Origin: Limnobacter sp. CACIAM 66H1
GTDB lineage: Bacteria; Pseudomonadota; Gammaproteobacteria; Burkholderiales; Burkholderiaceae_B
NCBI RefSeq assembly: GCF_001601825.1
Contig: NZ_LUJK01000014.1
Location: 1 to 62,306, forward strand
Length of the DNA: 62,306 bases
Reading direction: 5' to 3'
Below, piece after piece: positions 1,381 to 15,132 of the stretch (positions are counted from its first letter, which is position 1; every line of letters starts with the position of its first letter). Under the pieces are notes generated by a model. It saw only the letters and a list, made by a program, of their open reading frames with translations, was not told the origin of the DNA and did not search any database. Both the position numbers and the translations under genes were made by a program.

Positions 1381-3156
1381 TTACAAGTCTCGCCTTGTGT
1401 AGGGTACTTGGCCTGCGGCTAATATGGCCGTGCAGCGATTGGCGAAAGCGACTGGCACAGCGAGCGCGCTCAGATGCTGAGCACGCGTCAAACCAACGTA
1501 GAGAACACGCTTGGCCTCTGAGTCGGTGCGTGTTTCCCACGAATCGAAAAGAGCTTCACTTCGATTTTCACGAGTATGATTGGGCGGAATCACGACACAT
1601 ACTGCCCCGTACTCATGACCTTTCACTTCATGAATTTTTGCACACGAAAGGCCAAGTTCTGGTGGTATTCGAAGATGGTTCGACCACTGCTCGTTGGCTG
1701 GTCGCCGAAAGAAATTGCGCACCGATACACCAGTTGGTGTCGGCAAATCTAATCTTTCCATTTCTTTGTGCACGCAGTTGATCCAAGCGAGCCGATCAGT
1801 ATCGCTATCACCACAAGCTCTGGGAAGACTGAGTAGGAAGCTCAGCGCACGTCTTCGATGTGCCCGTCGATTCAAACCAAGGCGTTCGATGGCCCTCGAT
1901 AAATACTCGTTTGGCTTGCTGAGCCCCATGAAATCTAAAAGCAGCATTTCCACTACCTGAAGCACAGCCTCCCTCGTCCGCGCTGTCGTAGCGGGTGACC
2001 AGAACTCCGCCACTTTACGCGCCAGCGATTCGATTCGCGAGTTACCGTTTGGATCTTTGGTGATCACCCCAGCAGCCTGCAGCGCGATTTTACCTGCATG
2101 AGCTAAGATAATAGCGTCTGTTACCTCCAAGCCAAGTTCAGTAACTTGATCTAGGAAAGCCTGACCGATCGTAGCCATTGGGCTACGGCCTCCGTATGTT
2201 AGAAGCAAAACGGGATGTTCAACATTCACTGTATCCCCAAGTGAATGATCTACTTGACCAGAGCTTTTGAGTGTGGCGGCCAACCGGCAGACTACTGGAC
2301 TGCTACGAAAATTGCCAGTTAACTGGATATGCGAGTCAACGGGATATGTTTCCTTAAATTCTAGAATCCTCGCAGGGCTGCCATGACGAAACTCGTAGAT
2401 TGATTGATCGGGGTCACAGACGAAAGTAACATGTACACCGTGCGCTCGTAGCCATGAAAGGATCTGCAAATCAAGCGGATTACAATCCTGACCTTCGTCT
2501 ACCATGATCTCGTGGAAACGAGCTGCCAAAGATCGTCCTAGTGTTGTACCGTTTACTGGATCGCGAATTAGTTTCAGTGCTTGAATGCGGGCGTCGGCAG
2601 CACTCATGTAACCAGCTTGCAACAAGCCACGTCTACGGTGCGCAGCCGTCTGTTGATATCGGACTTGATGCAGGCGCACGTGATTTTGCAGCCCAAGATG
2701 TCCAATCTTGCTTGGATCAATAATATTGGTTTCCGGGTCGAACAAATCTAAGCTAACTGACTCACCTTTAAACGCGAATTTTCCAGATAGCCGAATTTCC
2801 ACACCCAAAGTGTTCCAACTGTCGAGGATGGTTGGTCGTATCGAGCGTGTCGCTGCGCAGTGTGGAAGTACAACAAAATGCCGTACGAAAGCATCAAGTG
2901 TTCCCATGAAACTGGGATGCTTCAATAGTGAATCTAATCCTGCGATCTGGCAACGTTCGCGAAACTCATCTACTGCGGAGTTTGTGAACGATAACACTGC
3001 TACACCACGCCGCGGTGGTAACTCGGAGACGATCCTTGATAAGCGAGCAAGGATCGTGCGGGTTTTTCCAGCGCCAGGGCAAGCATGAACAAAGACCTCG
3101 CCAACATGTAAGGCGAATGCATCTTGCTCAGCTGTTAGTCCGCCAATACCGGTCAT
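1381..3156 (-). CDS. UvrD/Rep-like superfamily 1 helicase, Gabija GajB-type
   Basis: 591 residues. All SF1A helicase motifs are present in order: Walker A ACPGAGKT near residue 30, motif Ia LSFTNSAVDE, motif II MVDEGQD, motif III CDPDQSIYEFR, motif IV GNFRSSP, motif V EVKGHEYG and motif VI YVGLTRA. The ATPase should therefore be active. Its start overlaps the stop of the OLD-family gene by 4 bases, implying translational coupling. The pair OLD ATPase + UvrD helicase is the signature of Gabija, where GajB acts with the GajA DNA-nicking complex. It is longer than the roughly 500-residue GajB of the founding Bacillus system, from memory. Confidence is high for helicase and good for a Gabija role. 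Confidence 0.87.
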   Translation of the reverse strand: MTGIGGLTAEQDAFALHVGEVFVHACPGAGKTRTILARLSRIVSELPPRRGVAVLSFTNSAVDEFRERCQIAGLDSLLKHPSFMGTLDAFVRHFVVLPHCAATRSIRPTILDSWNTLGVEIRLSGKFAFKGESVSLDLFDPETNIIDPSKIGHLGLQNHVRLHQVRYQQTAAHRRRGLLQAGYMSAADARIQALKLIRDPVNGTTLGRSLAARFHEIMVDEGQDCNPLDLQILSWLRAHGVHVTFVCDPDQSIYEFRHGSPARILEFKETYPVDSHIQLTGNFRSSPVVCRLAATLKSSGQVDHSLGDTVNVEHPVLLLTYGGRSPMATIGQAFLDQVTELGLEVTDAIILAHAGKIALQAAGVITKDPNGNSRIESLARKVAEFWSPATTARTREAVLQVVEMLLLDFMGLSKPNEYLSRAIERLGLNRRAHRRRALSFLLSLPRACGDSDTDRLAWINCVHKEMERLDLPTPTGVSVRNFFRRPANEQWSNHLRIPPELGLSCAKIHEVKGHEYGAVCVVIPPNHTRENRSEALFDSWETRTDSEAKRVLYVGLTRAQHLSALAVPVAFANRCTAILAAGQVPYTRRDL

Positions 3157-4904
3157 GCTTGGGATGCGCTACGAATCGCATTGACCAAGTAGTTAGGCAC
3201 TACAAATTCATCGCCCACAGCAATACGTGACGCGATAGCTTGGGCCAGGTCACCCTTTCTGGTCTTTTTTACCTCAATAAGCTTGAGAAATGCATCAGGG
3301 CGTTTGTCTAACTCGATCCGCTCGATTTTGTCTTCCCAGTCGCTGCGCGACTTGCGGTGCAGACTAAGAAATACTTGCTTGAGAAAGACCTCGTTTCCAG
3401 CGCTGAAAATCTCATGTTCTAAAGTGTGCTGATTGGTTAGCACAGTCAGTGCTTGCGATGCGCCATGTGTTGCAGCAAGGTTTTCCAGATCAACTTTTCG
3501 ATTTCCCAACACAGTTGGGTCCGCGTCGGTGATAACTATTAATCGATCAGCGATGCGAGCATCGCCATGTGGACGTAGCAGCACTTCGACATAAGGGCGA
3601 AAGTCCACTCCGTCGATCGGTACAATTACCGCACCCTTGAAGCGGAGCCATCCGTCGGTATCATCATTGAGAACGAGCTTTTGGGCTATCACCGGCAAAA
3701 GAAGAGCCTCCGCAATTCCTTCTACAAGGATGGCTCTATTACCGAACAGCAGCGATGAGCGTGTTACGTCCAAGTAGCGGCTGATTTTATCTAAGGTTTT
3801 TGGCTTCAGTCCTAGTTCCGCAATAGGTACGCTGACAGATTCTGAAACCGTTACCCCGTTTTGTTCGCTTCGACGAGAACGCATAACCACCAGATGTATA
3901 GGAGAAACCCATGCTGTCAAGTTCGGCGAATGGGTAGTCACAACGATTTGGATGCGGCCTTCCGGCTTGCCTGGCTCAATATTGCAACTGGTCGACCTAC
4001 GCGCTTGGTCTAGAAGAAATTCAAGAACGAGTACCTGCAGCTGTGGGTGTAAATGTGCTTCAGGTTCCTCAACGAGGAAAATTGTGAGGTCCGCCTCTTT
4101 TGCCTTCGTTAGTTCAACGACCACAGTAGCCATATAGAGTAAGTTGGAGTAACCCAAACCAGAAGCGCGGATGTCTTCGGGCACTAAGCCAGTGTCGGCT
4201 AATCGAAACCTTAAATCTCGGGCAACATCGAGTAATGTTTCAGTGCAAAAATCCAGAATCGCTGTTTGGGGACGAACTCCGTTAGTAAGCAAACCCAAGG
4301 CTGTGCCTATCTCAGCGTTCATCGTCATAAGGACGTCAGGTCTGTTTTCTCCGCGACTGACTCCAGTCAAAAAGTCTTGTTCTTGGTTCTTTGGTAAAAA
4401 ATTGCGTAGTAGTGCCATGACTCGGGTCCCGCTACCTGTGCCAAGTGCTTGATACGCATCGCGCAAGGGAGGTAGATAAACATGCCTTATCAGGTCAGAT
4501 GAACCCGCCTCAGGCTCGTTGGTGTCAAAGCGTCCAGCCCAGAAAGTAGTTTTACCCCTTGGGAGACGTTCTGAACGCGATTCATATCGATAGCCGAATA
4601 CAGCTTCGCTGTTAGTGAGATCTGGTACCGCTGAAATCAACAGCCCTTTCTGTGTATCGCTTAGGCCCCGGAAAGCGCCTTCAATTTGAAAGTTCGGGAC
4701 AGCCGCGTGTCGCCTTATATCCTCATCCTCAGGATAACGCTCCCTTCGTCCGCTCAGTGGCAAGGTAAGCAACCGGATCGCATCAATAACGTTGGATTTA
4801 CCTCCATTATTTTCACCAACCAAGACAGTCAGATCGGGTCGGAGACTGACTGTCACATTGTCGCAAGACCGAAAACGTGAAATTGTTAAACCGCCTAAAT
4901 ACAT
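3153..4904 (-). CDS. OLD-family ATPase/TOPRIM endonuclease, Gabija GajA-type
   Basis: 583 residues from the ATG at 4904, which has an AAGGAAG ribosome site; a longer in-frame start at 4997 gives a basic extension that does not look like the family. The Walker A is GENNGGKS (residues 30-37) and the Walker B region is VEEPEAHLHPQ, both typical of SMC/ABC-like OLD ATPases. The C-terminal TOPRIM domain shows ILVEGIAEALLLP (near residue 396) and VITDADP (near 461), giving the catalytic Glu and DxD. In Gabija, GajA forms a tetramer that nicks DNA when nucleotide is depleted. It is followed by the GajB-like gene with a 4-base overlap. A 115-base gap separates it from the nuclease gene upstream. Confidence 0.87.
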   Translation of the reverse strand: MYLGGLTISRFRSCDNVTVSLRPDLTVLVGENNGGKSNVIDAIRLLTLPLSGRRERYPEDEDIRRHAAVPNFQIEGAFRGLSDTQKGLLISAVPDLTNSEAVFGYRYESRSERLPRGKTTFWAGRFDTNEPEAGSSDLIRHVYLPPLRDAYQALGTGSGTRVMALLRNFLPKNQEQDFLTGVSRGENRPDVLMTMNAEIGTALGLLTNGVRPQTAILDFCTETLLDVARDLRFRLADTGLVPEDIRASGLGYSNLLYMATVVVELTKAKEADLTIFLVEEPEAHLHPQLQVLVLEFLLDQARRSTSCNIEPGKPEGRIQIVVTTHSPNLTAWVSPIHLVVMRSRRSEQNGVTVSESVSVPIAELGLKPKTLDKISRYLDVTRSSLLFGNRAILVEGIAEALLLPVIAQKLVLNDDTDGWLRFKGAVIVPIDGVDFRPYVEVLLRPHGDARIADRLIVITDADPTVLGNRKVDLENLAATHGASQALTVLTNQHTLEHEIFSAGNEVFLKQVFLSLHRKSRSDWEDKIERIELDKRPDAFLKLIEVKKTRKGDLAQAIASRIAVGDEFVVPNYLVNAIRSASQA

Positions 4905-4934
4905 AAAGACTTCCTTTGCCAGATAAACAAGCTT

Positions 4935-4955
4935 GGAAATTTGATTTGAATTTCC
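4935..4955 (-). promoter_or_regulatory. Inverted repeat in the leader of the GajA-type gene
   Basis: A perfect 7-base inverted repeat, GGAAATT / AATTTCC with a 7-base loop, lies about 30 bases upstream of the GajA-type start inside the 115-base gap after the nuclease gene. It could be an operator, a leader hairpin or a processing site, allowing the last two genes to be controlled apart from the first two. There is no T-tract, so it is not a typical terminator. Confidence 0.35.
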
Positions 4956-5019
4956 TTCTCGACCACGCGTACGGTTGCCTACAATCGCTAACCGCAATCA
5001 GCCCTCTCCTCGTTATTGT

Positions 5020-6066
5020 TTAAGAGGGAGAGAACAACACACGATCAATGCCCCAGTAGTCGAGCAGGCAAAAGAGTGTGCTGCGGAGTTCGACACTAGC
5101 TGATTCATGCGAGTTAAAGTCTCTCTTCATTGCCAGTTGCTCAAACTCTCTAGCAACGGTAAACAAGGTCCGAGCAACTTCGTTCTTTGAGAAAAAATCA
5201 CCTAAGACCGCTGTGTTCAGGTGAGTCAACTGTTTCTCAACACTTGATCTCACTTGCCGTGAAATTGTCAGCCCATCGTTCGCATGTTCTTCAACCAATC
5301 CCATTGCAACATTCAAGACTTTTTTGAAGCCCGAACTGCCCCTGGAGCCATATGTGAAACCATCTTTCATAAGCAAGCTACGTTCTGACTGCTCGTGGAA
5401 GGATAGCTCCTTCATGCAGTAGTCAACTGCAATTGCAACAAAAGAACATAGTAAGTAAAGACACCTAAGAGCAGTTTCGCGCTGGGTGCCCTTGGTGATT
5501 GATTGCTCGGCAAAGAATTTCCCTTGACCAAGCCATTCATTGCAACTATCGAACGAAAGTGATTTAGCCAGTAAGCTTTTAGAAAGAACAATTCTTCCAC
5601 GCCAGTCCCCGTCCAGCTTACTAAGTGAGTATTCATTGATCTTGGAAAAAAACTCTTCATCCGAGAGTCTTGTCTCATTTGGTTCATCTGAATTGGCAAG
5701 TTTCCCAAGAAAGGTACCGTCGAGAACCAGCACTCCAAGGTCTCGGCCAAAATTTTTGACTTCTTGACGCCTATCTGTCGTTGCCACGATCGCATTCGTT
5801 GCTTTCGTGGCAATACGAAGTCCCCTAATCCAGAAGATTCTTTCTATAGCCTGCGGGGTTTTTTTGTTTTTGGCATCAACCAAGGCGATTTCACGCGACA
5901 CGGAAGACGTGCGACTGTATAGCCACAGATCAATATCGGTTACGTCAAAACCCTCGTACACAAAAGGGACGCTCCGAACAACGTAATACCCAGCTTTGAG
6001 GAAGTAGCTACGCAGCAACTCCTCCATTTTCGGCCCCTTGGACAAGACTCGTTGACTTTTACTCAT
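5020..6066 (-). CDS. PD-(D/E)XK nuclease-like protein in defence operon
   Basis: 348 residues. The N-terminal 75 residues have the order expected of a restriction-endonuclease-like fold: a Glu-rich helix (EELLRSYF, residues 15-22), FDVTDIDLWLY (40-50) with candidate catalytic D44/D46, and LVDAKNKK (62-69) giving the D-x-K signature D64/K66, followed by a helix. The remaining 250 residues are mostly helical and unrecognised. The start overlaps the stop of the upstream 420-residue gene by 4 bases, so the two are probably made together. I infer a DNA nuclease, possibly the effector or a helper of the operon. The fold assignment is by eye. Confidence 0.6.
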   Translation of the reverse strand: MSKSQRVLSKGPKMEELLRSYFLKAGYYVVRSVPFVYEGFDVTDIDLWLYSRTSSVSREIALVDAKNKKTPQAIERIFWIRGLRIATKATNAIVATTDRRQEVKNFGRDLGVLVLDGTFLGKLANSDEPNETRLSDEEFFSKINEYSLSKLDGDWRGRIVLSKSLLAKSLSFDSCNEWLGQGKFFAEQSITKGTQRETALRCLYLLCSFVAIAVDYCMKELSFHEQSERSLLMKDGFTYGSRGSSGFKKVLNVAMGLVEEHANDGLTISRQVRSSVEKQLTHLNTAVLGDFFSKNEVARTLFTVAREFEQLAMKRDFNSHESASVELRSTLFCLLDYWGIDRVLFSPS

Positions 6067-7325
6067 AGCCCACCTCCAGTCCGGAGGACAGAAAGCATGT
6101 CGTTAGTTGCTTTCGGGCTCATCTTGGTTTGCGTCCTCCGAACTTTTTCACGATTGTGCTCAGGGCCACTGAATGTCGTAACGGCGGCAGTTGGTAGTGA
6201 GTTTAACGAATGCTCGCTGATATCACCCTGTCGAATCACTTGAAGAGCCAACTCACCAACTTCTGTCTTCAGAAGACGTAGCATAGGGCCTGTTCTTCCC
6301 TTCTTGGTTCCTTGTTTTACCTCGACCACTCCCTTTAATTCGAGCACTTTGTAATCTTCAGCAATCGCCCGGACTGGACCAATGCTATCGCCGCGCACCA
6401 AAGCACTTAACAGAGCATCAACCATTTGGATTTGTCCGCGCTCGTAATAGCTCTTTGTCATGCCATATGTGACGGAGCTTATAAAAGCTTTCGCAAGGTC
6501 GAAGGCATCATCAACCATCGAGTTACTGTATTTTGAAAACGCCGACGGCAAAGTCAGGAAACCAACGTCCTCGGTTGAGTTGCTGACAACACTAATGTCG
6601 AATAGGCCGATCGCCGTAACTTTTAGAAATAGGGCCTCACCCAGACAATGTTTTGCATGGTCGGTACTAACACATGCTTGTTTACGCAATGCTTCGGTAA
6701 GCTCATTTAGCTTTATCTGTTCTGCCGCGCTCAACGAATCTAATATGGCTTTGATCTTTTGTGTGGTGTCGCGGCGAAACAGGTTACCGTTGAACAACAG
6801 CGTCTGATTACTATCAATTTTCTCAGCGTCGACAAAGCCAATCTGCTCGGCCTCTAAAAATAGCTGGCTAAGATCGGCGGTAGCTAACTTGTATGTATCT
6901 GCCAAATCACTGGCAACATCTTTTGCAAGAATTGGCGTCATTGAGGCTCGCTCTGCAAGCGCGATTGAAGCAACTTCATTTGCACTGGGGCTGAGCGATT
7001 CGAAGAGATCGGAAGTGTGCTGCAACGCAGTGGCGGTTGTCACGCCAAGTACGGCAACTCCGCTGGATGATTTGTCGATCAGCTTCTGCTGCTGCAATAC
7101 TTCGATTAGCTTTGGAAGCTCAAATGTTGTATTGATGTTGGCTGCCTTCGCTAAAACGGCTAGCCTGTCATTGTTGACAGTAATCTCCCTATTGGCGGAA
7201 ATGGTTGACAAAAGTATTCCAGCCTTCCCAGCCAAATAGGTTTTCTCGTACCCAGATTGGTTTGTGACTCCTTGCAGTTTATTTGTATGATGAATCAACC
7301 ACGATCCTTTGGTTTTCTTATCCAT
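6063..7325 (-). CDS. Unrecognised first gene of the defence-like operon
   Basis: 420 residues, soluble, no signal peptide or membrane segment. The ATG has a good ribosome site (AAGGAAG). The N-terminus is basic, and residues about 30-110 and 150-190 are helical with a pattern that could be winged-helix units. The C-terminal region has KQGTKKGRTGPMLRLL, which could contact nucleic acid. It overlaps the nuclease gene by 4 bases and leads the operon. I do not recognise the family. It may be the sensor, a DNA-binding subunit or an operon regulator. The three-gene Menshen system also, as I recall, ends in an OLD-type ATPase, and its first protein is a possible relative; a profile comparison would settle this. 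Confidence 0.5.
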   Translation of the reverse strand: MDKKTKGSWLIHHTNKLQGVTNQSGYEKTYLAGKAGILLSTISANREITVNNDRLAVLAKAANINTTFELPKLIEVLQQQKLIDKSSSGVAVLGVTTATALQHTSDLFESLSPSANEVASIALAERASMTPILAKDVASDLADTYKLATADLSQLFLEAEQIGFVDAEKIDSNQTLLFNGNLFRRDTTQKIKAILDSLSAAEQIKLNELTEALRKQACVSTDHAKHCLGEALFLKVTAIGLFDISVVSNSTEDVGFLTLPSAFSKYSNSMVDDAFDLAKAFISSVTYGMTKSYYERGQIQMVDALLSALVRGDSIGPVRAIAEDYKVLELKGVVEVKQGTKKGRTGPMLRLLKTEVGELALQVIRQGDISEHSLNSLPTAAVTTFSGPEHNREKVRRTQTKMSPKATNDMLSVLRTGGGL

Positions 7326-7339
7326 TTTTCTTCCTTACG

Positions 7340-7356
7340 CTGGGAATTAATTCCAG
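7340..7356 (-). promoter_or_regulatory. Palindrome in the 5' leader of the defence-like operon
   Basis: GGAATTAATTCC (7343-7354) is a perfect 12-base palindrome, and the flanking CTGG / CCAG also pair in a slightly different register. It lies 18-29 bases upstream of the first start codon of the four-gene operon. It could be an operator for a repressor, perhaps the first gene product. The 7326-7562 gap otherwise shows no gene. Confidence 0.35.
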
Positions 7357-7562
7357 ATGGTCTCTAAGGTACCCGCGTTACTTAACTCCTAACAACATAT
7401 AGACGGCGTTCCAGATACTGCGGGATCTAAATCCTAACATCGACCAAGTTTTGTGAACCAATGCACAAACTTTGCGCCTATGCTCGTGATTCATCAGTAT
7501 TCTTTTTGTCAATAAGCGTAACGGCCCAAGCTATCGTGATACGCGATTATTCACTCCTAAAT

Positions 7563-8519
7563 TTATTGAATAGATTTTAGTCGATCGAGTAACTCTGCTT
7601 TAGAAATCCAATTGATTTGCTGTTGATCAATTCCGACGTTAATGTTCATGCTAGCTACCCCAGTAGAGTGAGTCCATGGAGAAAAAAAATCGACTTCCCC
7701 CTCAGGTCGAAGGAAGCGGCAATTTTTTGAACCAATTTTGTTTGCAATTTTTAACGCGGTAAGGATATTGTTGATCGACATATAAACAAGTTGATGCTGT
7801 TGGAGAATTCTGTCTAAAGACCAATTTGTTGATATTGTTTTTGCCTGAATGTGATGGTTGCCCAAGTTAGAATTTATAGGGGTAATTTTATAAAACGTAG
7901 CCCCATATTTTGAACTCCCCAGGGACTTCATTTTTTCAGGTGGGGCCGGAGTATTTGGGTCCTCTTGCTTTCCAATTGAAAGACCAAATCCCCCTGATCT
8001 AGTTCGGAAACCGTGCTTCATCGCATTGTATTCATCAACGCTATCTTGATTTAAAAAGTCTGCAGCCATTCTCGCCCAAAAGTCAGCGAACCCTTCTATC
8101 GTAGTTTTCTGTCGATCAGTTCTTGGCATGTAATGTCTGAAAACGAACTGGGAAATTTCATGCCAACTTACCTCCCTAACTAGTAGTTTCACGATGAGGG
8201 ATTTATCAGAGTTGGCAATTCGATTCACGACTTTACGTAATGTTGAATTTGAGCATTTCGCCAGCCAAGCCTGTGGACAGTCGGGTGCCTGAACATAAGC
8301 GCCTATCATGGAGAACATGGTTTCCGTAGCGTGATGTAGCGATAATTTAATTGCCATCACTGCGCGTGCTTCATCGACGGCTTCAACATGTTCGTTGAAA
8401 ACATATTCAAAGTAATCGGGATCAATGCCCTCAAGAAATTTCTGAGCCTGTCTTTCGAGATTGAAATCCCAGATGCAATAGGGTTCATCGTTTACGGCGA
8501 ATACACTAGATTGCATCAT
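7563..8519 (-). CDS. Hypothetical island protein with an NxxKHG motif
   Basis: 318 residues, soluble, no signal peptide. It is Trp- and His-rich in its first half and mainly helical. It contains DEYNAMKHGFR near residue 160, reminiscent of the N-x-x-K-H-G helix seen in some HEPN-like and abortive-infection proteins, but a full HEPN R-x4-6-H motif is not obvious. Its 5' end is divergent from a possible tiny Cys-rich gene 2 bases away. It sits 237 bases upstream of the defence-like operon on the same strand, so it may be part of the same defence cargo. I cannot assign a function. Confidence 0.5.
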   Translation of the reverse strand: MMQSSVFAVNDEPYCIWDFNLERQAQKFLEGIDPDYFEYVFNEHVEAVDEARAVMAIKLSLHHATETMFSMIGAYVQAPDCPQAWLAKCSNSTLRKVVNRIANSDKSLIVKLLVREVSWHEISQFVFRHYMPRTDRQKTTIEGFADFWARMAADFLNQDSVDEYNAMKHGFRTRSGGFGLSIGKQEDPNTPAPPEKMKSLGSSKYGATFYKITPINSNLGNHHIQAKTISTNWSLDRILQQHQLVYMSINNILTALKIANKIGSKNCRFLRPEGEVDFFSPWTHSTGVASMNINVGIDQQQINWISKAELLDRLKSIQ

Positions 8520-8521
8520 AA

Positions 8522-8686
8522 ATGGATAACATCATTCAAATAAATTTCGAGGGCAATTGTTGCCAAGTACAGCAAGGACGCTGTATCTGCATTTGTGGAT
8601 TTCCGAGAGAGTTTGGCACTAAGATAGAACAGAAAATATCGGCTGAAGCCCTTGAAGACAAGCCCGTCAAGAAACCTTGCTTTTGA
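8522..8686 (+). CDS. Possible 54-residue cysteine-rich small protein
   Basis: An ATG at 8522 opens a 54-codon frame that fills the gap between two minus-strand genes. The protein has a Cys cluster, GNCCQV followed by GRCICICGF (C13, C14, C21, C23, C25), and ends PVKKPCF. The spacing could bind a metal or [Fe-S] centre. There is no clear ribosome site (the start is 2 bases from the divergent ATG), so expression is uncertain. It may equally be chance. Confidence 0.3.
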   Translation: MDNIIQINFEGNCCQVQQGRCICICGFPREFGTKIEQKISAEALEDKPVKKPCF

Positions 8687-8700
8687 TCCGCTTCACAATC

Positions 8701-9414
8701 TCAACCTTGCTCTGCTTCAATAATCCGATGTCGGATTGACTCAAAACTCTCGATTTTTTCAAGATATCTTGCTTCTGATTCAGTAAGGCAGTCGAGGCCG
8801 TGACCGAACTTACCCAGCCACCAGTTTTCGAGGTCTTCTCCATGCTTCTCTCTAAGTCTTTGTAATGTTTCAATTTCTAATCCTATTTTCGCCGAGTAGG
8901 GCTTTCCGGTCAACACGGTAGCTGCTACAACACGCCCTCCTTGACTCAAGATATATCCTCTGAGGTTCGCCAAGGTACCTCCTTGGCCTATGAAATCGTC
9001 AACGAGTAGGTAGTTTCTGTCCTTCACAATCGTTCCATCAAACATCGCTTGGTGAGCCATACGGTGCATTCCACCTGCACCTGTGTGACTGACAACGTTA
9101 ATTTGAACGACATCGGTGTCTGACTCAAACCCAGTTTTTTCCTCCAGCAGTTCTGCCAAAGCTGCAGGAATAGCATTCACGCCACTTGACTCCACAGCGT
9201 GAGCCGATACCAGAATAGGTTGCGCACTAGCGTAGTTTTTAGTCAGTTCTTCAATCACCGTCAGGGATACAAGATGATTTACCAAAACAAAAGCAGCATC
9301 TGGATCACCCGATTTCGAGGCAGGGTACATCGGGTGCGTCTTAACCGCGCTTTCAGACGCATGGATTGATACGGGTGGAAACCCGTTCCAGGGGTATCGG
9401 GGTGGGAAGCTCAT
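8701..9414 (-). CDS. Phosphoribosyltransferase-fold protein
   Basis: 237 residues. The motif LLVDDFIGQGGTLANL near residue 137 is the PRPP-binding loop of type I phosphoribosyltransferases (two acidic residues, then G-x-G-T). Flanking strands fit the PRTase core, including ILVSAHAVESSGVNAIP upstream. The C-terminal region, with KHGEDLENWWLGKFG, is outside the core. There are no purine- or pyrimidine-salvage genes nearby, so it is an orphan on the island. Such PRTases occur on phages, plasmids and in toxin-like contexts. Substrate unknown. The 213-base gap upstream should contain its promoter. Confidence 0.75.
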   Translation of the reverse strand: MSFPPRYPWNGFPPVSIHASESAVKTHPMYPASKSGDPDAAFVLVNHLVSLTVIEELTKNYASAQPILVSAHAVESSGVNAIPAALAELLEEKTGFESDTDVVQINVVSHTGAGGMHRMAHQAMFDGTIVKDRNYLLVDDFIGQGGTLANLRGYILSQGGRVVAATVLTGKPYSAKIGLEIETLQRLREKHGEDLENWWLGKFGHGLDCLTESEARYLEKIESFESIRHRIIEAEQG

Positions 9415-9627
9415 GGTGTTATCGCTTACTTGTTAGTGCCGAAGGGGCTGTCATACACGGTATCCAACAGTATTGTCCAAAGTGGGGAATGGGTATGCCC
9501 CCTCGTTGCATAGAACGTTTCATGAATCTCCAAATCATCAACGTGTTTCTTCTTGATTTGAGAAAAGTCTGTGAAATCAGGACGCTAAAAATTATTTCGT
9601 GAGGAAAAAAAACTACTCACACCTAGG

Positions 9628-10809
9628 TTATTTCGAAATTTTGGTTCGTTTACGTCCTCTTGGGTCTTTGGTGGGGTCTTTGGCAAACTCCGCGCGAAAC
9701 AAATGATCTCCTTTTTGCTTGCCGAATTCGATCGCTTGATCGGCTTTGGCAAGATAGCTGAGAGAGTGGTAAAGATTTTTCCTTTTCTGTACGTCGAAAT
9801 GATCCACTTGGCCCAGTGCCCAACGCTGATACTTTTCATAGAAGGCCTTATTCTTGTTGCAATTGTGAAAGTAGCCTTGCCCCTTTGTTATGACATCTGC
9901 CCAATACCGACCTATTTGGTCCGCGTAATACTCATGCTTGTCCACCTTTGATCCGTCAAACAGGAAACATACGTGGATGTGGTACCCGGCTTCACGGGCG
10001 CATTCAATTTTCCATATGTACCCCACAAGCTCTCTAAAAAGTAGAGGTTTTCCCTTCCGGTTGGTAAATAGCCGTTTGCGGTCTGCAGCAACGCGTTCAA
10101 AGCAGACTTTTCCGATTGGGGATCTAGCTAAAGGAAGATCGTCTATAGCCAAGAGGCTGGAGTTATCAAAATCAGCGAATTCATGATTACTCCAGTAGGC
10201 TTGATGATCATCTGCACGACTTTTCAATAACTCATGTATGACTTGTTCAGCCTCTTCATGTGTTAGCACCGCCTCTTTGTAATGAAAGTCTAGCCGAACG
10301 ACCATGAGCCTGGCATATCTTGCAAAGAGCGTGTCCAACAATTGATTTATTCGTCTTACACGTGCGGCAGGTTTGTTCCTCCAGTTTCCTATTTGCTTCT
10401 TGAGCTTGCATTGAATCGCATTCTTCCTCATTGTTGCCACGAAATCGTCGAATATTTTGACGATTTCGTCACTTGGTTTGCCAGCTCTGAACATAGAAAG
10501 ATTTTCATGATATTTACTGATTTTATGTCTTCTATAATTTTCAAAGAAATATTGAATTTCAGGACAAAACTGATAGTCGCGAGTAAACATGTTGGCGTAG
10601 TGGCCTAAGTCGGGTAAGTGTTTTCCCAGTTTGGTGACCTCATAATCATTTTTTAACTTAGATTTTGTTTTTGTGTAGAAGTATTGTGATCGATAAATTA
10701 CCTCGTTCATGAATGAGATTAGTGAGTATATTCCTTCAAGATGGTTGTTTAGTATGAGTTGTCTATTTTCCTTTAGTGTCAGAGTGTGATTGTGAGTTGA
10801 TATTTTCAT
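9628..10809 (-). CDS. YagK/YfjJ-domain, inovirus Gp2-like HUH replication protein
   Basis: 393 residues. The C-terminal half matches the YagK/YfjJ domain (PF11726; inovirus-type Gp2): MVVRLDFHYK near residue 170, the fingerprint GYHIHVCFLFDG near 285 with the HxH of HUH endonucleases, and DKHEYYADQIGRYWAD after it, which supplies candidate catalytic tyrosines. Such proteins are found on satellites, integrative elements and filamentous phages, and are thought to nick DNA for rolling-circle replication or mobilisation. The first 150 residues are helical and basic. An AT-rich 242-base region lies directly upstream and may hold the origin. The nicking role is inferred from the motif. Confidence 0.75.
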   Translation of the reverse strand: MKISTHNHTLTLKENRQLILNNHLEGIYSLISFMNEVIYRSQYFYTKTKSKLKNDYEVTKLGKHLPDLGHYANMFTRDYQFCPEIQYFFENYRRHKISKYHENLSMFRAGKPSDEIVKIFDDFVATMRKNAIQCKLKKQIGNWRNKPAARVRRINQLLDTLFARYARLMVVRLDFHYKEAVLTHEEAEQVIHELLKSRADDHQAYWSNHEFADFDNSSLLAIDDLPLARSPIGKVCFERVAADRKRLFTNRKGKPLLFRELVGYIWKIECAREAGYHIHVCFLFDGSKVDKHEYYADQIGRYWADVITKGQGYFHNCNKNKAFYEKYQRWALGQVDHFDVQKRKNLYHSLSYLAKADQAIEFGKQKGDHLFRAEFAKDPTKDPRGRKRTKISK

Positions 10810-11051
10810 GGTTTTTATTAATTATCATGTTGATCTTGTGAGTTGATGGTCTTCTGTCTTTGCTCAGGTATTTGATTGTTATCATTAATTAAAATATAAG
10901 AAATAAAACAATCTTATTATTTAACCATAATTAAAGGTTTATGAGATTAGTGTTTATTTGTGGTTTTTCCTTGGTGGTTTAGTGATTTTTTATAAATCTT
11001 TTTGATTTTTTAATATGCTCAAAAATTCAGACGCGAGATGTGAATTAAAAG
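10810..11051. other. AT-rich intergenic region, possible replication origin or promoter
   Basis: 242 bases, strikingly A/T-rich with many TTAATTA-like words, between the DUF3987 gene and the HUH-protein gene, both on the minus strand. It must contain the promoter of the HUH-protein gene. Its composition and position also suit an origin or a nick site for that protein. I do not see a clean iteron array or a strong hairpin. Confidence 0.35.
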
Positions 11052-12329
11052 TTAAAAAATATTAGATATCTCTATCCAAATACGATCTTCGTTATCTTTA
11101 AATGATCTAATCTTCCCCTCTGATCCTAAATGAGCCAATACTTTGTCAAGTCGATATTTCGTTAAACCTAGGTTGATACAGCCAGAACGAATGTCTTTAA
11201 GCGGTAATCTAAAATATCCCCATTGTTGAAAAAATTGTCGAACTGAGTTTTCAACTGTCATTATGTCTTTCGTGAACTCTGAGGGTTTTTTAGGTTGGTT
11301 GCAGATGATCTGAAATGTGTTACTCCAATATTGATCAAATGAAATAGCGGTTGATACAAAATGCTCTGACACCTGATCTTTGGTTCCTGATTCGAAAACA
11401 TGCATTGCGGTTGCAAATCTTCTAATTCTCTCGCCGCTACGGCTTATGTACTCTTGTATTTGCTCTGTGGTCACCTTATCTCTTGGTGGAAAATCAATGG
11501 GCCTAGGCGTTCTCTCGTAGTCCTGAAGTAAGCGTTCAGCTTGCTCTGTCAGAGTTAGTTGTGTCCTAGATGGATTGGCTTGATTTGCTTGTTGAATATT
11601 TGCGGTTAGCAAGGCTTGTATCGTTGCTTTGTAGTGGCGAAGTGTCTGATCTGAAAGTTGAACCATTGAGGCCATACTTTGCGTAACTCTCCATCCCCCT
11701 TGAGCAAAACAAAATCGATTTACTAGACCATTACTTCGCTTCCCGATACCTAAAAGGCTCTTGATTTCGTCAAACACCGCAGGTTGACCAGCTAAGTGTG
11801 CTGAAAATCGATAGTCCTTCAGTTTCACGTTGCCACTTTTGACTCGCGCGTGGTGAAGCGAAGTGCTGTCTAGTAACTTGTTTAGTCTCGCTTGGGCGGA
11901 GTGTCCTTTTAATAGGTTAGTGATCGCGCCAAATTCCTCTGAAATTAAGGTGCAATAGGGCCAGGCCATGAGGGTTGAAACAATTGCCTCCTTTGATGTG
12001 TCTTCAAGAAAAAACTCTGGCGTAGATTTCGAACTGGAATCTTCGACAAGCTCCCCTAAAGCCCTCTCGATCGGATCCTTCAATATTTTGTTGATCAAGC
12101 TCTTTCCTGAAACTGGTGGGGCTATCAAAAAACCGTTGTTGCCAATCCTGGAATCTACGCCGTTGGGTAACCGAACATCCGCGATTCCTTGCGTGAGGGT
12201 TGTCATGAATTGCTGAACAATTGCTGAGACGATTACTGGATCAACCTGTCCCCCGCTTAGGTCCGATTGAATCGCCCCAAGAAGTCCAGGTAGTTTCGGC
12301 ACGATAGGTTGATGGGGTAGGTAGTTCAT
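11052..12329 (-). CDS. DUF3987 (YfjI-like) island protein
   Basis: 425 residues from the ATG at 12329, whose start overlaps the stop of the HTH gene by 4 bases. The region FLIAPPVSGKSLINKILKDP holds a P-loop-like PPVSGKS. The motifs EFFLEDTSKEAI, LISEEFGA and HLAGQPAV are typical of the DUF3987 family found on satellites, prophages and integrative elements. Family members resemble helicase/primase-associated ATPases and are thought to help replicate the element. The C-terminal 90 residues look like a winged-helix domain. With the AlpA-like and HUH genes it forms a replication module. Confidence 0.72.
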   Translation of the reverse strand: MNYLPHQPIVPKLPGLLGAIQSDLSGGQVDPVIVSAIVQQFMTTLTQGIADVRLPNGVDSRIGNNGFLIAPPVSGKSLINKILKDPIERALGELVEDSSSKSTPEFFLEDTSKEAIVSTLMAWPYCTLISEEFGAITNLLKGHSAQARLNKLLDSTSLHHARVKSGNVKLKDYRFSAHLAGQPAVFDEIKSLLGIGKRSNGLVNRFCFAQGGWRVTQSMASMVQLSDQTLRHYKATIQALLTANIQQANQANPSRTQLTLTEQAERLLQDYERTPRPIDFPPRDKVTTEQIQEYISRSGERIRRFATAMHVFESGTKDQVSEHFVSTAISFDQYWSNTFQIICNQPKKPSEFTKDIMTVENSVRQFFQQWGYFRLPLKDIRSGCINLGLTKYRLDKVLAHLGSEGKIRSFKDNEDRIWIEISNIF

Positions 12330-12526
12330 TGGCCCTCTCCCTGTGATAGAGCGTCGGCTGGCATATCCGGCCAAAGCAGTTTTCTATTCTTGAGCTTGAT
12401 TGGTGTGATTCCGAAGTAAGACCCAGTTTGGCTGTGGCGCTTCCGAACGGTTTGCGCAGCTACCAAACACTTAGCTGCGAATTGGTCCGTCGATAGTGTG
12501 TAGACGGGGGGTGATTGTTCCTGCAT
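12326..12526 (-). CDS. AlpA/excisionase-like HTH protein
   Basis: 66 residues. The segment YTLSTDQFAAKCLVAAQTVR followed by KRHSQTGSYFGITPIK reads as a MerR/AlpA-type helix-turn-helix with a wing, and LKNRKLLWP is the usual end of this domain. Such proteins regulate integrase or replication genes, or act as excisionases. It overlaps the DUF3987 gene by 4 bases (ATGA) and lies downstream of an inverted repeat that may be its operator. Confidence 0.7.
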   Translation of the reverse strand: MQEQSPPVYTLSTDQFAAKCLVAAQTVRKRHSQTGSYFGITPIKLKNRKLLWPDMPADALSQGEGQ

Positions 12527-12640
12527 TGATGTCTCCTAAAAATGTGATCTAGAGGCATTCCCGTGCACTGGTGGGGATGCGACTGGGTTGGATCTTAGGT
12601 GGGAGAAGAGGAAAAATCGAGGTGCATTTGGGTCGCCCCA

Positions 12641-12674
12641 ACCCTACCCTTTTTAACTTTCAGAAAGGTAGGGT
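12641..12674. promoter_or_regulatory. Inverted repeat upstream of the AlpA-like gene
   Basis: An 8-base perfect inverted repeat, ACCCTACC / GGTAGGGT, with an inner TTT / AAA pair, in the 234-base region between two divergent genes. It may be an operator for the AlpA-like protein, a leader hairpin or an element-specific replication site. The rest of 12527-12760 shows no gene. Confidence 0.4.
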
Positions 12675-12760
12675 ATTCACTGGCTTGTTAAAGAATCTTC
12701 TAAAAGTGTCGATAGATAAATATTGTTACTTAACCTTTTGACACAAATTTCACTCTACCA

Positions 12761-13723
12761 ATGAGCAAACCAAAGCTAAATAACTGGGTTTATAGATATA
12801 TTCAGAGTGCTGTTAATAACGCGCTCCATCTCGAGTATGCGATACGTGCTGCGGAATCACTTTATCCAAAGCAAATGATTTATTTAAATTTATTGAAAGA
12901 GGAGTTGATTGCTTATTGGTTAAACAAGTCAAAAACTTTAAGTGAGATAGAAGAGTTAAAATTAATTGATATTTCTTTTGATCGATTACAATTTCATTCA
13001 ATAATAATAAGAAGAAATGATATTTATTTGAGATTTAATAGTTCTTTGCGGGTTGAGCTTGAAAAGCTTTATGATGAATTTATCGATAAATATTTTGATA
13101 TCGAGATAGCTCCATTTAAATTATTTAGGGCGGTAGACTTGGCATGCGGTAATAATATTTTGAGCATGTATAACGAAGCTAAGCGATGTATGGACATTTC
13201 GAAAGATTTGGTATTGAAACCAAAAGATGACTTTGAACTCGATAGAGAGTATGTTATTAGGGAGCCCGTGCATGTTCATCCAGCGTTAACATTTTGCGGC
13301 AGTGATCATTTTACTTATGAAGGAAAATTTGGTGCATATTTCAATTTGAAATATGATTTATCGGCAGAGGATTTATTTTTCACTATGCGCGAATTTATGT
13401 ATCAGTATGCATCTTGGTGTAATGCTGATCTGAAGTTAGGTCGATGGAATTCAAGATCTTTGGTTAATTATTATTTTGATAATGAATTTTTCGACTGTGG
13501 GGCTAATGAAGTAAAGGCGCCAAACGGATTGTTAGGGCCTATTTTAGGGTTGTATTGTTACGATAAGCGAGAAAGGCAAAAATTGAAGCCTAAAGTTGCA
13601 ATTAACGAAACTACAAAAATCCATAAATTTACTTTTGAAACGATGCAAAAAAGGTACAAGAACACTCGAAAAAAGATTAGTCAATATAAAAATAAGTTTA
13701 AAAACTTTCCCGATTATTATTAA
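12761..13723 (+). CDS. Unrecognised AT-rich gene next to the integrase
   Basis: 320 residues, with base composition much more AT-rich than the backbone. The protein is rich in Lys, Tyr, Phe, Asn and Asp, with no signal peptide or obvious membrane segment. The centre has REPVHVHPALTFCGSDHFTY and the C-terminal 50 residues are strongly basic (KRYKNTRKKISQYKNKFKNF), suggesting nucleic-acid contact. It is the only long plus-strand gene on this part of the island and converges on the integrase. The composition suggests recent acquisition from another host. I do not recognise it. Confidence 0.55.
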   Translation: MSKPKLNNWVYRYIQSAVNNALHLEYAIRAAESLYPKQMIYLNLLKEELIAYWLNKSKTLSEIEELKLIDISFDRLQFHSIIIRRNDIYLRFNSSLRVELEKLYDEFIDKYFDIEIAPFKLFRAVDLACGNNILSMYNEAKRCMDISKDLVLKPKDDFELDREYVIREPVHVHPALTFCGSDHFTYEGKFGAYFNLKYDLSAEDLFFTMREFMYQYASWCNADLKLGRWNSRSLVNYYFDNEFFDCGANEVKAPNGLLGPILGLYCYDKRERQKLKPKVAINETTKIHKFTFETMQKRYKNTRKKISQYKNKFKNFPDYY

Positions 13724-13736
13724 AATAATTGCCTTT

Positions 13737-15065
13737 CTAGGCCAAGCTAGCTTCATTTAGTATCCAGTCTTCAATTTGCTCATGCCACTTGCGTAGCAAG
13801 TCGATCGGCCGTCTGCGGTAATGTTTTTCAGCAATCGCAGATGGTTTGTGCCCTTGAATTTGTGCAACCACTCCTACAGGCACTTCACACCACTCGGCAA
13901 GAGTGCCAAATGATCTCCGTAATCCATGTAGAGTGATGTGAGGAATTCCTGCCTTCTCCAAAGCTTGGTTATGTGCAATTCGAGGTTCGGAAATTTTGCC
14001 ATCGGCTGAGTTTGGACTGAAAAAGACCCATTCGGATTGTCGGTGCCTTTCCGCAGTCTTACTTTTTTTGCTCCTCAGCTGGTCATTTGTAATTTGTTCC
14101 TTGATTTGTTTCAGTTCGAGCAGCAGCGATGCAAGGTATGGAGTCAATGGAACGGTACGTCCGCCTGTTCCTTCAACTTTGTCGTTCAGGGTGATTGTTT
14201 TCCAAGTGAAGTCAATATCGCTCCACTTCAGCGCGGCCCATTCCTCGCGACGTGGGCCAACAATCAAGAGTCCCTGAAGGTATGCGCTCATTATCGGATT
14301 TCCGAGGGAACGTACAGCTGAAAACCATGCCTGAAGCTGTTCTTTCTGCAGCGAGTCACCTTCTTTGGCTTTTACCCTCGGAAGTGCGTCTTTCACGCTT
14401 CTCGCTTTGTAGGCATCGCTGGAGATTGATGTTGCAAATTCAGGATGCTCTGCTGCCCAACGTATGAAACCTCTGACCATCCGAAAGGACAGTGCAACCA
14501 TGGTGGGCCTTTTTTCTGATTCCTTTTGTAGCCATTCCGTCAAGTGTGGGCCCGAGAGGTCTTTCAGTTTTACGTCCAACAATTGCGCGATTGGCCCGGG
14601 TTGAATTACTCCATTACCTTTGGCACGTTTCATCCCACCTCGTTGCGAATGACGAAGGTGATCTTGTAGTGTTCGAGCACCCCAGAATGGCTTTCTGGAC
14701 TCGATGTAGAGATTCCACGCTTCTTCAAACTGAACTTCCTGCCGACGCGCTTCGTCTCGCCTTGCCGAATGCGCTGCTTTTTTTTCAGCGATGTGTTCTC
14801 TCGGATCAATACCCTGATCCACAAGGGTTTGCAGGTATCGTGCTCGTTCTTGTGCTAACTCGATCGACCAGCTTTTCACGTCACCGATTGTCGTACGGAT
14901 TGTTTGACTATTGAATTTGGACTGAAAAATATACGACTTGCTTCCGCCAGCAGTAGCTCTCAAACCTAGCCCTGGAGATTTGCTATCCCAAACGAAGGTT
15001 TGTGACTTGCCAGGATCACAGGTAAAGCTAGAAATTCTTGAAGAGGTGAAATTGATCTTTGCCAT
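13737..15065 (-). CDS. Tyrosine recombinase, island integrase
   Basis: 442 residues from the ATG at 15065. The N-terminal domain is of the DUF4102 (arm-binding) type: SPGLGLRATAGGSKSYIFQ near residue 30. The catalytic domain has the full set: R272/R273 in GPRREEW, HGLRR (H380, R383), GHKPSA (H406) and the nucleophile in KHYRRR (Y416). P4-type integrases of this class insert at the 3' ends of tRNA genes. The gene reads away from the tRNA-Asn fragment 180 bases upstream, which is the usual arrangement. It is likely functional. Confidence 0.92.
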   Translation of the reverse strand: MAKINFTSSRISSFTCDPGKSQTFVWDSKSPGLGLRATAGGSKSYIFQSKFNSQTIRTTIGDVKSWSIELAQERARYLQTLVDQGIDPREHIAEKKAAHSARRDEARRQEVQFEEAWNLYIESRKPFWGARTLQDHLRHSQRGGMKRAKGNGVIQPGPIAQLLDVKLKDLSGPHLTEWLQKESEKRPTMVALSFRMVRGFIRWAAEHPEFATSISSDAYKARSVKDALPRVKAKEGDSLQKEQLQAWFSAVRSLGNPIMSAYLQGLLIVGPRREEWAALKWSDIDFTWKTITLNDKVEGTGGRTVPLTPYLASLLLELKQIKEQITNDQLRSKKSKTAERHRQSEWVFFSPNSADGKISEPRIAHNQALEKAGIPHITLHGLRRSFGTLAEWCEVPVGVVAQIQGHKPSAIAEKHYRRRPIDLLRKWHEQIEDWILNEASLA

Positions 15066-15132
15066 TCTTTGGAGCCGTTCGATATTTGCCAGATTCCATG
15101 TAACCAGCATGTAACCCGATTATGGCTGCTTT

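Follow-up and report, generated by a model that had tools for sequence, protein, structure and literature searches.

A Gabija system and an unnamed, strictly paired two-gene cassette with a predicted nuclease on one strand of Limnobacter sp. CACIAM 66H1 DNA

Four consecutive minus-strand genes, in the order G4, G3, GajA, GajB, occupy positions 1381-7325 of a 62,306-nucleotide stretch of Limnobacter sp. CACIAM 66H1 DNA (contig NZ_LUJK01000014.1 of RefSeq assembly GCF_001601825.1, positions 1 to 62,306, hereafter termed the window). We conclude, with a probability that we put at about 0.6, that these genes represent two independently inherited modules placed on one strand, the last two forming a Gabija system and the first two an unnamed anti-invader nuclease cassette in which G4 would direct G3. 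The Gabija half is known, and the G4-G3 half, which has no name in the libraries used, would be of a nuclease-based anti-invader kind that is not categorically new. The two genes of the pair make up a strictly paired family that occurs in many phyla and on several kinds of phage contigs and plasmids. The position of the pair in the window carries a caution, namely that overlapping defence genes in a run on one strand can belong to stacked modules and not to one system.

Gene layout and the Gabija half

The arrangement reported in a first-pass annotation, which a model had made from the sequence alone, was confirmed by open reading frame analysis of the window as to the four minus-strand genes, their order, both 4-base overlaps and the 115-base gap. 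G4 (6063..7325, 420 amino acids) and G3 (5020..6066, 348 amino acids) overlap at 6063-6066, GajA (3153..4904, 583 amino acids) and GajB (1381..3156, 591 amino acids) overlap at 3153-3156, and the intervening 115 bases (4905..5019) are the seam of the two modules. The open frame of GajA extends over 4997..3153 from a TTG codon at 4997. Because the GajA profile match begins only at residue 32 of this frame, translation probably starts from the ATG at 4904, which yields the 583-residue protein and the 115-base distance to G3. A promoter and terminator scan detected no site in this junction, a result of little weight given that the scan returned fewer sites than its shuffles.

The same annotation had called the last two genes Gabija-type, and this held. 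GajA and GajB matched end to end the PADLOC models PDLC00073 (GajA, E-value 1.2e-271) and PDLC00112 (GajB, E-value 2.4e-263), and Pfam recognised AAA_15 (4.6e-26) and OLD-like_TOPRIM (4.3e-7) in the former and UvrD-helicase (1.5e-26) in the latter. The motifs are intact in both proteins: in GajA these are GENNGGKS, FLVEEP, and VEG with TDAD, which we take to be Walker A, Walker B and the TOPRIM residues respectively, and in GajB GAGKT, presumably Walker A, followed by what we take to be the further helicase motifs DEGQD, DPDQS, GNFRS and VGLTR. An OLD-type ATPase with a TOPRIM nuclease domain is encoded by gajA and a UvrD-like helicase directly downstream of it, with the 4-base overlap, and comparison with Gabija revealed no difference. 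Judged by sequence, GajAB is a standard two-gene Gabija and an ordinary member of that known system.

G4 and G3 form a strict pair

Relatives of G4 were gathered from whole genomes, viral contigs, plasmids and the window's own family (loci are cited below by L numbers). The whole-genome scan comprised the best 80 of 97 G4 relatives, and distant relatives are therefore under-counted. Of the resulting 89 G4 loci, L011 and L068 are the same record, some are near-identical and two (L051 and L053) are fragments of one genome; within the window's family, G4 was present in 3 of 268 genomes, the window's own counted. In 85 of the 89 loci, the gene directly downstream of G4 and in the same orientation is G3, and in the remaining four the contig stops before G3 could appear. 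The spacing between the two genes among these 85 loci is -4 (48 loci), -1 (27 loci) or 0 to +9 (10 loci). When viral contigs were searched starting from G3, G4 was found just upstream in 7/7 loci, and on plasmids the G3 and G4 searches matched the same 7 records. Because of this same-strand adjacency, and because the searches started from G3 give the same picture, we conclude that G4-G3 is a real and strict pair.

Inactive copies seem to exist, since G4 is split over two frames in L039 (2824-4083) and L083 (9861-11140). On the Vibrio plasmid NZ_CP047989.1 (20802-23118) the G4 match falls into two pieces with an ISVa2-family transposase annotated beneath, and this copy looks interrupted.

The pair is probably inherited independently of Gabija

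The first two genes had initially been described as either an extension of Gabija or a second system stacked on the same operon. The analysis agreed with the latter, in that the two genes could be a separate system placed on the common strand, and a single extended four-gene system was unsupported. Only 6 of the 89 loci were found to have both GajA and GajB close to the pair, with GajA proteins that are 86% (L015), 31% (L020), 87% (L022), 88% (L053), 23% (L084) and 24% (L091) identical to that of the window. Between L084 and L091 the GajA identity is 52%, making three Gabija types beside the pair in all. Gabija is located just upstream of G4 in L020 and L091, the helicase of the latter being confirmed as UvrD-like, and 1.8 kb downstream in L084. 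L015, L022 and L053 display the window's gene order and Gabija type, with identities of 86-88% for GajA, 74-80% for GajB and 78-81% for G3, and belong to genomes of a Pseudomonas sp., of Xanthomonas cucurbitae and of a member of the window's family (G118).

The other 83 pair loci do not carry GajA and GajB together in the DNA examined; a helicase-only GajB match in L059, at 25% identity, was not counted as Gabija. Among plasmids, the pair was detected in 7 records (E-value 1e-3) and GajA relatives in 28 (E-value 1e-30), with 0 in common, and neither of two GajA-GajB loci that were inspected contained the pair. GajAB was likewise not found at the closest relatives of the pair, L016, L017 and L028, whose G4 proteins are 90-91% identical to that of the window. 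The converse test, GajA without the pair, rests on plasmids because wider sampling of GajA found the window's copy only: at an E-value of 1e-60 this GajA type was present in 1/399 genomes of the order, 1/369 of the class and 1/398 of the phylum, the window's own included. Conservation of the four genes together, named in the first-pass annotation as support for a single system, was not observed, and the separate occurrence of the pair and of GajA that it had named as speaking against one is largely what these counts give.

One extended four-gene Gabija, in which the pair would add an extra sensor and a nuclease to GajAB, would agree with the common strand, the short junctions, the recurrence of order and type in L015, L022 and L053, and a divergence from the window that is of the same kind across GajA, GajB and G3. 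It is, however, opposed by the 83 pair loci without GajAB, by the 28 plasmid records and two inspected loci with GajA and no pair, by the two other Gabija types in different arrangements and by the closest pair relatives without GajAB, and we regard it as very improbable. These data favour two modules that were stacked more than once. Because three further genomes repeat the window's gene order and Gabija type, the combination of pair and Gabija is at least tolerated and may even be favoured.

A tree of 79 G4 proteins was examined for the same question. Nine loci that were fragments, split copies or a duplicate were excluded from it, as were two in which G3 is cut, and L053 and L091 are therefore absent. 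The window falls in a supported group of six (100/97); at the other five loci of this group an ABC-three-component (ABC-3C) ATPase gene adjoins the pair and Gabija is absent. Gabija without ABC-3C labels the window, L020 and L084, and Gabija with ABC-3C labels L015 and L022; the supported branches require at least two changes for each of these two groups. Both groups are tiny, and although Gabija does not cluster with any pair lineage on the tree, this is not a strong test.

A hybrid with Menshen had also been suggested. In the description of PMC10952713, Menshen includes a DUF262 gene together with a predicted OLD nuclease. The window has the OLD-type nuclease in common with it, but DUF262 was not detected in any of the four proteins (Pfam, E-value up to 0.5) and the hybrid was rejected.

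G3 is a predicted PD-(D/E)XK nuclease and G4 a candidate tandem winged-helix protein

Neither G3 nor G4 matched any family in PADLOC-DB 2.0.0 or NCBIfam (E-value up to 0.5 in both) or in PHROGs (E-value up to 0.1), and a sequence search of both against solved structures gave 0 matches. G3 by itself has a weak Pfam match to Mrr_cat (E-value 0.028), below Pfam's cut-off, whereas the same family was matched by 20 of 65 G3 relatives at E-values up to 0.1, the best being 2.6e-5. The active-site positions E15, D46, D/E64 and K66 are kept in 65/65 relatives, D64 being E in one of them, within an alignment whose mean column identity is 37%. The AlphaFold2 model of G3 (predicted local distance difference test score, pLDDT, 92.6) comprises an N-terminal PD-(D/E)XK core of about 120 amino acids and an all-helical C-terminal half, and its Foldseek matches include Cdn1 (4.8e-3), MspJI (5.8e-3), AspBHI and Can2, every E-value being above 0.001. 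The PD-(D/E)XK-like label that the 348-residue gene had first received was weak from the window protein alone and became firm through the Mrr_cat matches of its relatives, the active-site residues kept in all of them and the predicted fold. By superfamily criteria, i.e. catalytic E, D and D/E-x-K placed on the core, G3 is a PD-(D/E)XK nuclease, with cutting predicted.

G4 has one chance-level winged-helix match in Pfam (E-value 0.069), and two of its relatives weakly matched a model named 'wHTH-PRTase associated' (best E-value 0.047). Its predicted secondary structure can be read as some four repeated units, each with three helices and a hairpin, followed by C-terminal helices. An AlphaFold2 model of medium confidence (mean pLDDT 72.6) was compared by Foldseek; RPC62 tops the resulting list (9e-4 and 1e-3) and TFIIIC, ScpB and MarR regulators are found lower, these proteins having several winged helices each. 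Against a library of viral structures, nothing was found below an E-value of 0.001. We interpret G4, with moderate confidence, as a predicted tandem winged-helix protein of about four units.

Distribution and mobile carriage

The pair is spread over Pseudomonadota, Bacteroidota and Actinomycetota, the last through two Rubrobacter plasmids. By record labels it also occurs in many other phyla, one archaeal metagenome bin among them, phylum counts of this kind being unsure as the bin labels of L016 and L044 (Lokiarchaeota) may be wrong. L016, from a bin labelled Planctomycetota, carries on a 9.4-kb contig a G4 that is 91% identical to that of the window.

Several viral contigs contain the pair. 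In L102 it lies on the opposite strand, flanked on one side by tail-completion and tail-terminator genes and on the other by a baseplate gene, and the open reading frame layout of L104 matches that of L102. We read this gene layout as that of a P2-like prophage with the pair at the place of orf30, between S and V. A table of PMC3091744 places P2 orf30 between V and S, and the paper counts it among three regions in which foreign genes frequently occur; the P2 defence hotspot described in PMC9122126 is a different site, located between gpA and gpQ. L009 carries tail sheath and tail-completion genes, and one near neighbour in the scan described below, its locus not being named, matched Mu gpT; we read L009 as a Mu-like phage contig from its gene content. 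L010 encodes a replication-nicking protein as well as a receptor-binding minor head protein, and is read in the same way as a filamentous phage contig. Among deposited phage genomes (INPHARED), 0 records were obtained for G3 and 0 for G4.

In E. coli, a partial DNA match was detected in 19 of 5426 complete genomes. Two of these genomes were inspected, and both contain the whole pair (G4 57% identical) at a gene for tRNA-Pro, with an integrase gene alongside and an ABC-3C system in the vicinity. Such copies, represented by the proteins WP_023142848.1 and WP_023142847.1, are usable for experiments. Carriers of the pair comprise phages, plasmids and integrative islands, in some cases with Gabija, ABC-3C or restriction genes adjoining it. 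On the E. coli tRNA-Pro island, a 682-residue hypothetical protein is encoded between the pair and ABC-3C (L106, 17304-19352, plus strand).

Carriage by plasmids, phage contigs and islands would also suit the main rival to an anti-invader cassette, a large toxin-antitoxin system that maintains these elements, with G3 as nuclease toxin and G4 as DNA-binding antitoxin and autoregulator. The overlap of the genes, the position of the DNA-binding-like protein first and the joint presence of both in 85/85 loci with room point in the same direction. Both proteins are, however, large for a classical pair, and the first gene is better conserved than the second, the alignment of G4 relatives (72 rows) having a mean column identity of 54% as compared to 37% for G3 (65 rows). 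An antitoxin that is better conserved than its toxin is unusual, and we consider this alternative unlikely.

Neighbours of the pair

The pair is repeatedly placed beside defence systems. In 10 of the 89 loci an ABC-3C ATPase gene (DUF2326) lies directly upstream, 15-115 bases away, and members of this upstream set match CTD10, Middle Component 6 (MC6) and DUF2326. L018 has a different ABC-3C type downstream (CTD7, MC3, DUF3732) and L019 a nearly identical one; a DUF3732 ATPase is found near the pair in L042 and a distant one in L023, and the E. coli island provides a third ABC-3C type, MC7 with DUF2326. In the phage contig L009, a CAP12/Pycsar-type TIR-domain gene (12383-13267, plus strand, E-value 1.1e-27) directly follows the pair.

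This recurrence of ABC-3C, directly upstream in ten loci and as other types near the pair in L018, L019, L042 and the E. coli island, raises the question of whether the pair is an effector add-on of these conflict systems, which loci without ABC-3C would have lost. The CTD10/MC6/DUF2326 type is, however, limited to one close G4 clade, DUF2326 is absent from the window's whole genome, and a similarity search with the ABC-3C types tried found none in most pair loci. In addition, no ABC-3C Pfam family was detected in the pair proteins of the window or among the families listed for 72 G4 and 65 G3 relatives. ABC-3C is a recurrent direct neighbour of the pair, and its role as the parent system appears very improbable.

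Neighbouring genes encoding 120-1100 amino acids were scanned more generally. Nine loci that were duplicates or fragments, including L053, were first set aside, and the scan then covered 124 near genes out of 207 and 137 far genes out of 256. At an E-value of 1e-15, near neighbours matched 187 PADLOC models and far neighbours 47; these are numbers of models and not of genes, inflated by many related GajB models matching the same three proteins, and the contrast is only a rough sign. In Pfam, the list for near neighbours is led by DUF2326, CTD10, integrase, N6_Mtase and UvrD, that for far neighbours by metabolic and regulatory families. Ordinary metabolic genes are also present among the near neighbours.

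Proposed mechanism and comparison with known systems

In the two-module reading, G4 would touch DNA and control G3, the substrate being DNA and the outcome defence. G4 probably binds nucleic acid, a nucleoprotein signal of invasion or a G3-DNA complex; having chosen the target, it would then load, position or license G3. With G4, G3 would cleave DNA that enters with phages or other mobile elements, or else the infected cell would be killed; restriction of the invader and cell death fit the sequence alike. If the pair does defend its host, it would be a nuclease system without a paired modification gene.

Several results weigh against this reading. The fold matches of G4 are weak (best E-value 9e-4 at a template modelling score of about 0.15), and a comparison of profiles between its units (hhalign) was not significant, with E-values of 0.028-0.086 and probabilities below 1% for units 1-3 and nothing returned for unit 4. 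Because the model is of medium confidence and the fold matches are weak, the term winged-helix derives chiefly from the pattern of secondary structure and the type of proteins matched. On the tree, Gabija label counts are no better than shuffled ones, 500/500 shuffles being as low, and some linkage with Gabija persists in the three other loci that share the window's order and type. Gabija was sought by BLAST from the window's proteins, so that far types could be missed, and many contigs are short. As to the neighbours, defence genes such as Wadjet-type JetC and those of type I restriction occur among the far ones too, the neighbours with DUF2326 share a common descent, and no recognised defence system adjoins the pair at most loci.

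Among known nucleases, Mrr, MspJI, AspBHI, Cdn1 and Can2 share the nuclease core and active-site residues with G3. It differs from them by an all-helical C-terminal half that the best matches do not cover and by a fixed partner gene in place of a fused recognition or sensor domain. In DndG, SspB and FokI, a multi-winged-helix protein or domain supplies recognition, described as a triple module in PMC10853773. G4 would be alike in design, with tandem winged helices that may address a nuclease, a resemblance that does not imply kinship. Unlike them, G4 looks like four units and the pair consists of two separate genes without a fixed modification gene; no FokI, DndG or SspB title occurs among the 50 Foldseek matches listed for G4. 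A tentative extension of this comparison, to which we assign a low probability, is that G4-G3 acts as a split restriction enzyme, a four-winged-helix recogniser with a separate nuclease and no modification enzyme of its own, borne by phages and plasmids and portable, working with or backing up an adjoining ATPase-anchored system. Such a portable role is possible because the pair recurs beside Gabija, ABC-3C with DUF2326 and ABC-3C with DUF3732. A literature search of partial coverage found no account of the pair, and it may have been described elsewhere.

The surrounding island

Directly upstream of G4 lies a gene for a 318-residue protein (7563-8519, minus strand) without Pfam, PADLOC, NCBIfam or PHROGs match, of which no relative was found in the loci tried. 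Beyond it lies a phosphoribosyltransferase-like gene (8701-9414, minus strand; Pribosyltran E-value 5.9e-5, below Pfam's cut-off), possibly part of another accessory unit. Further on, Pfam identifies a YagK/YfjJ C-terminal protein (9628-10809), a DUF3987 protein (11052-12374) and a tyrosine integrase (13737-15110), and by its gene content the segment 9628-15110 is the probable core of an integrative element. No convincing attachment-site repeats were found flanking the island.

An island common to the relatives of the pair was considered and discarded, eight other window genes having no match at an E-value of 1e-6 in 98 loci; when this search was repeated with a positive control, one integrase match was obtained at 2.8e-4. 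An ABC-3C remnant upstream of the window's G4 was also sought, by tblastn of positions 7301-12000, and none was detected. The DNA of the element core gave two weak partial matches when compared to plasmids. A second AAA_15-type ATPase gene, a 661-residue frame, is located at another place in the same genome (G000:C70:1765-2943; L002, L004).

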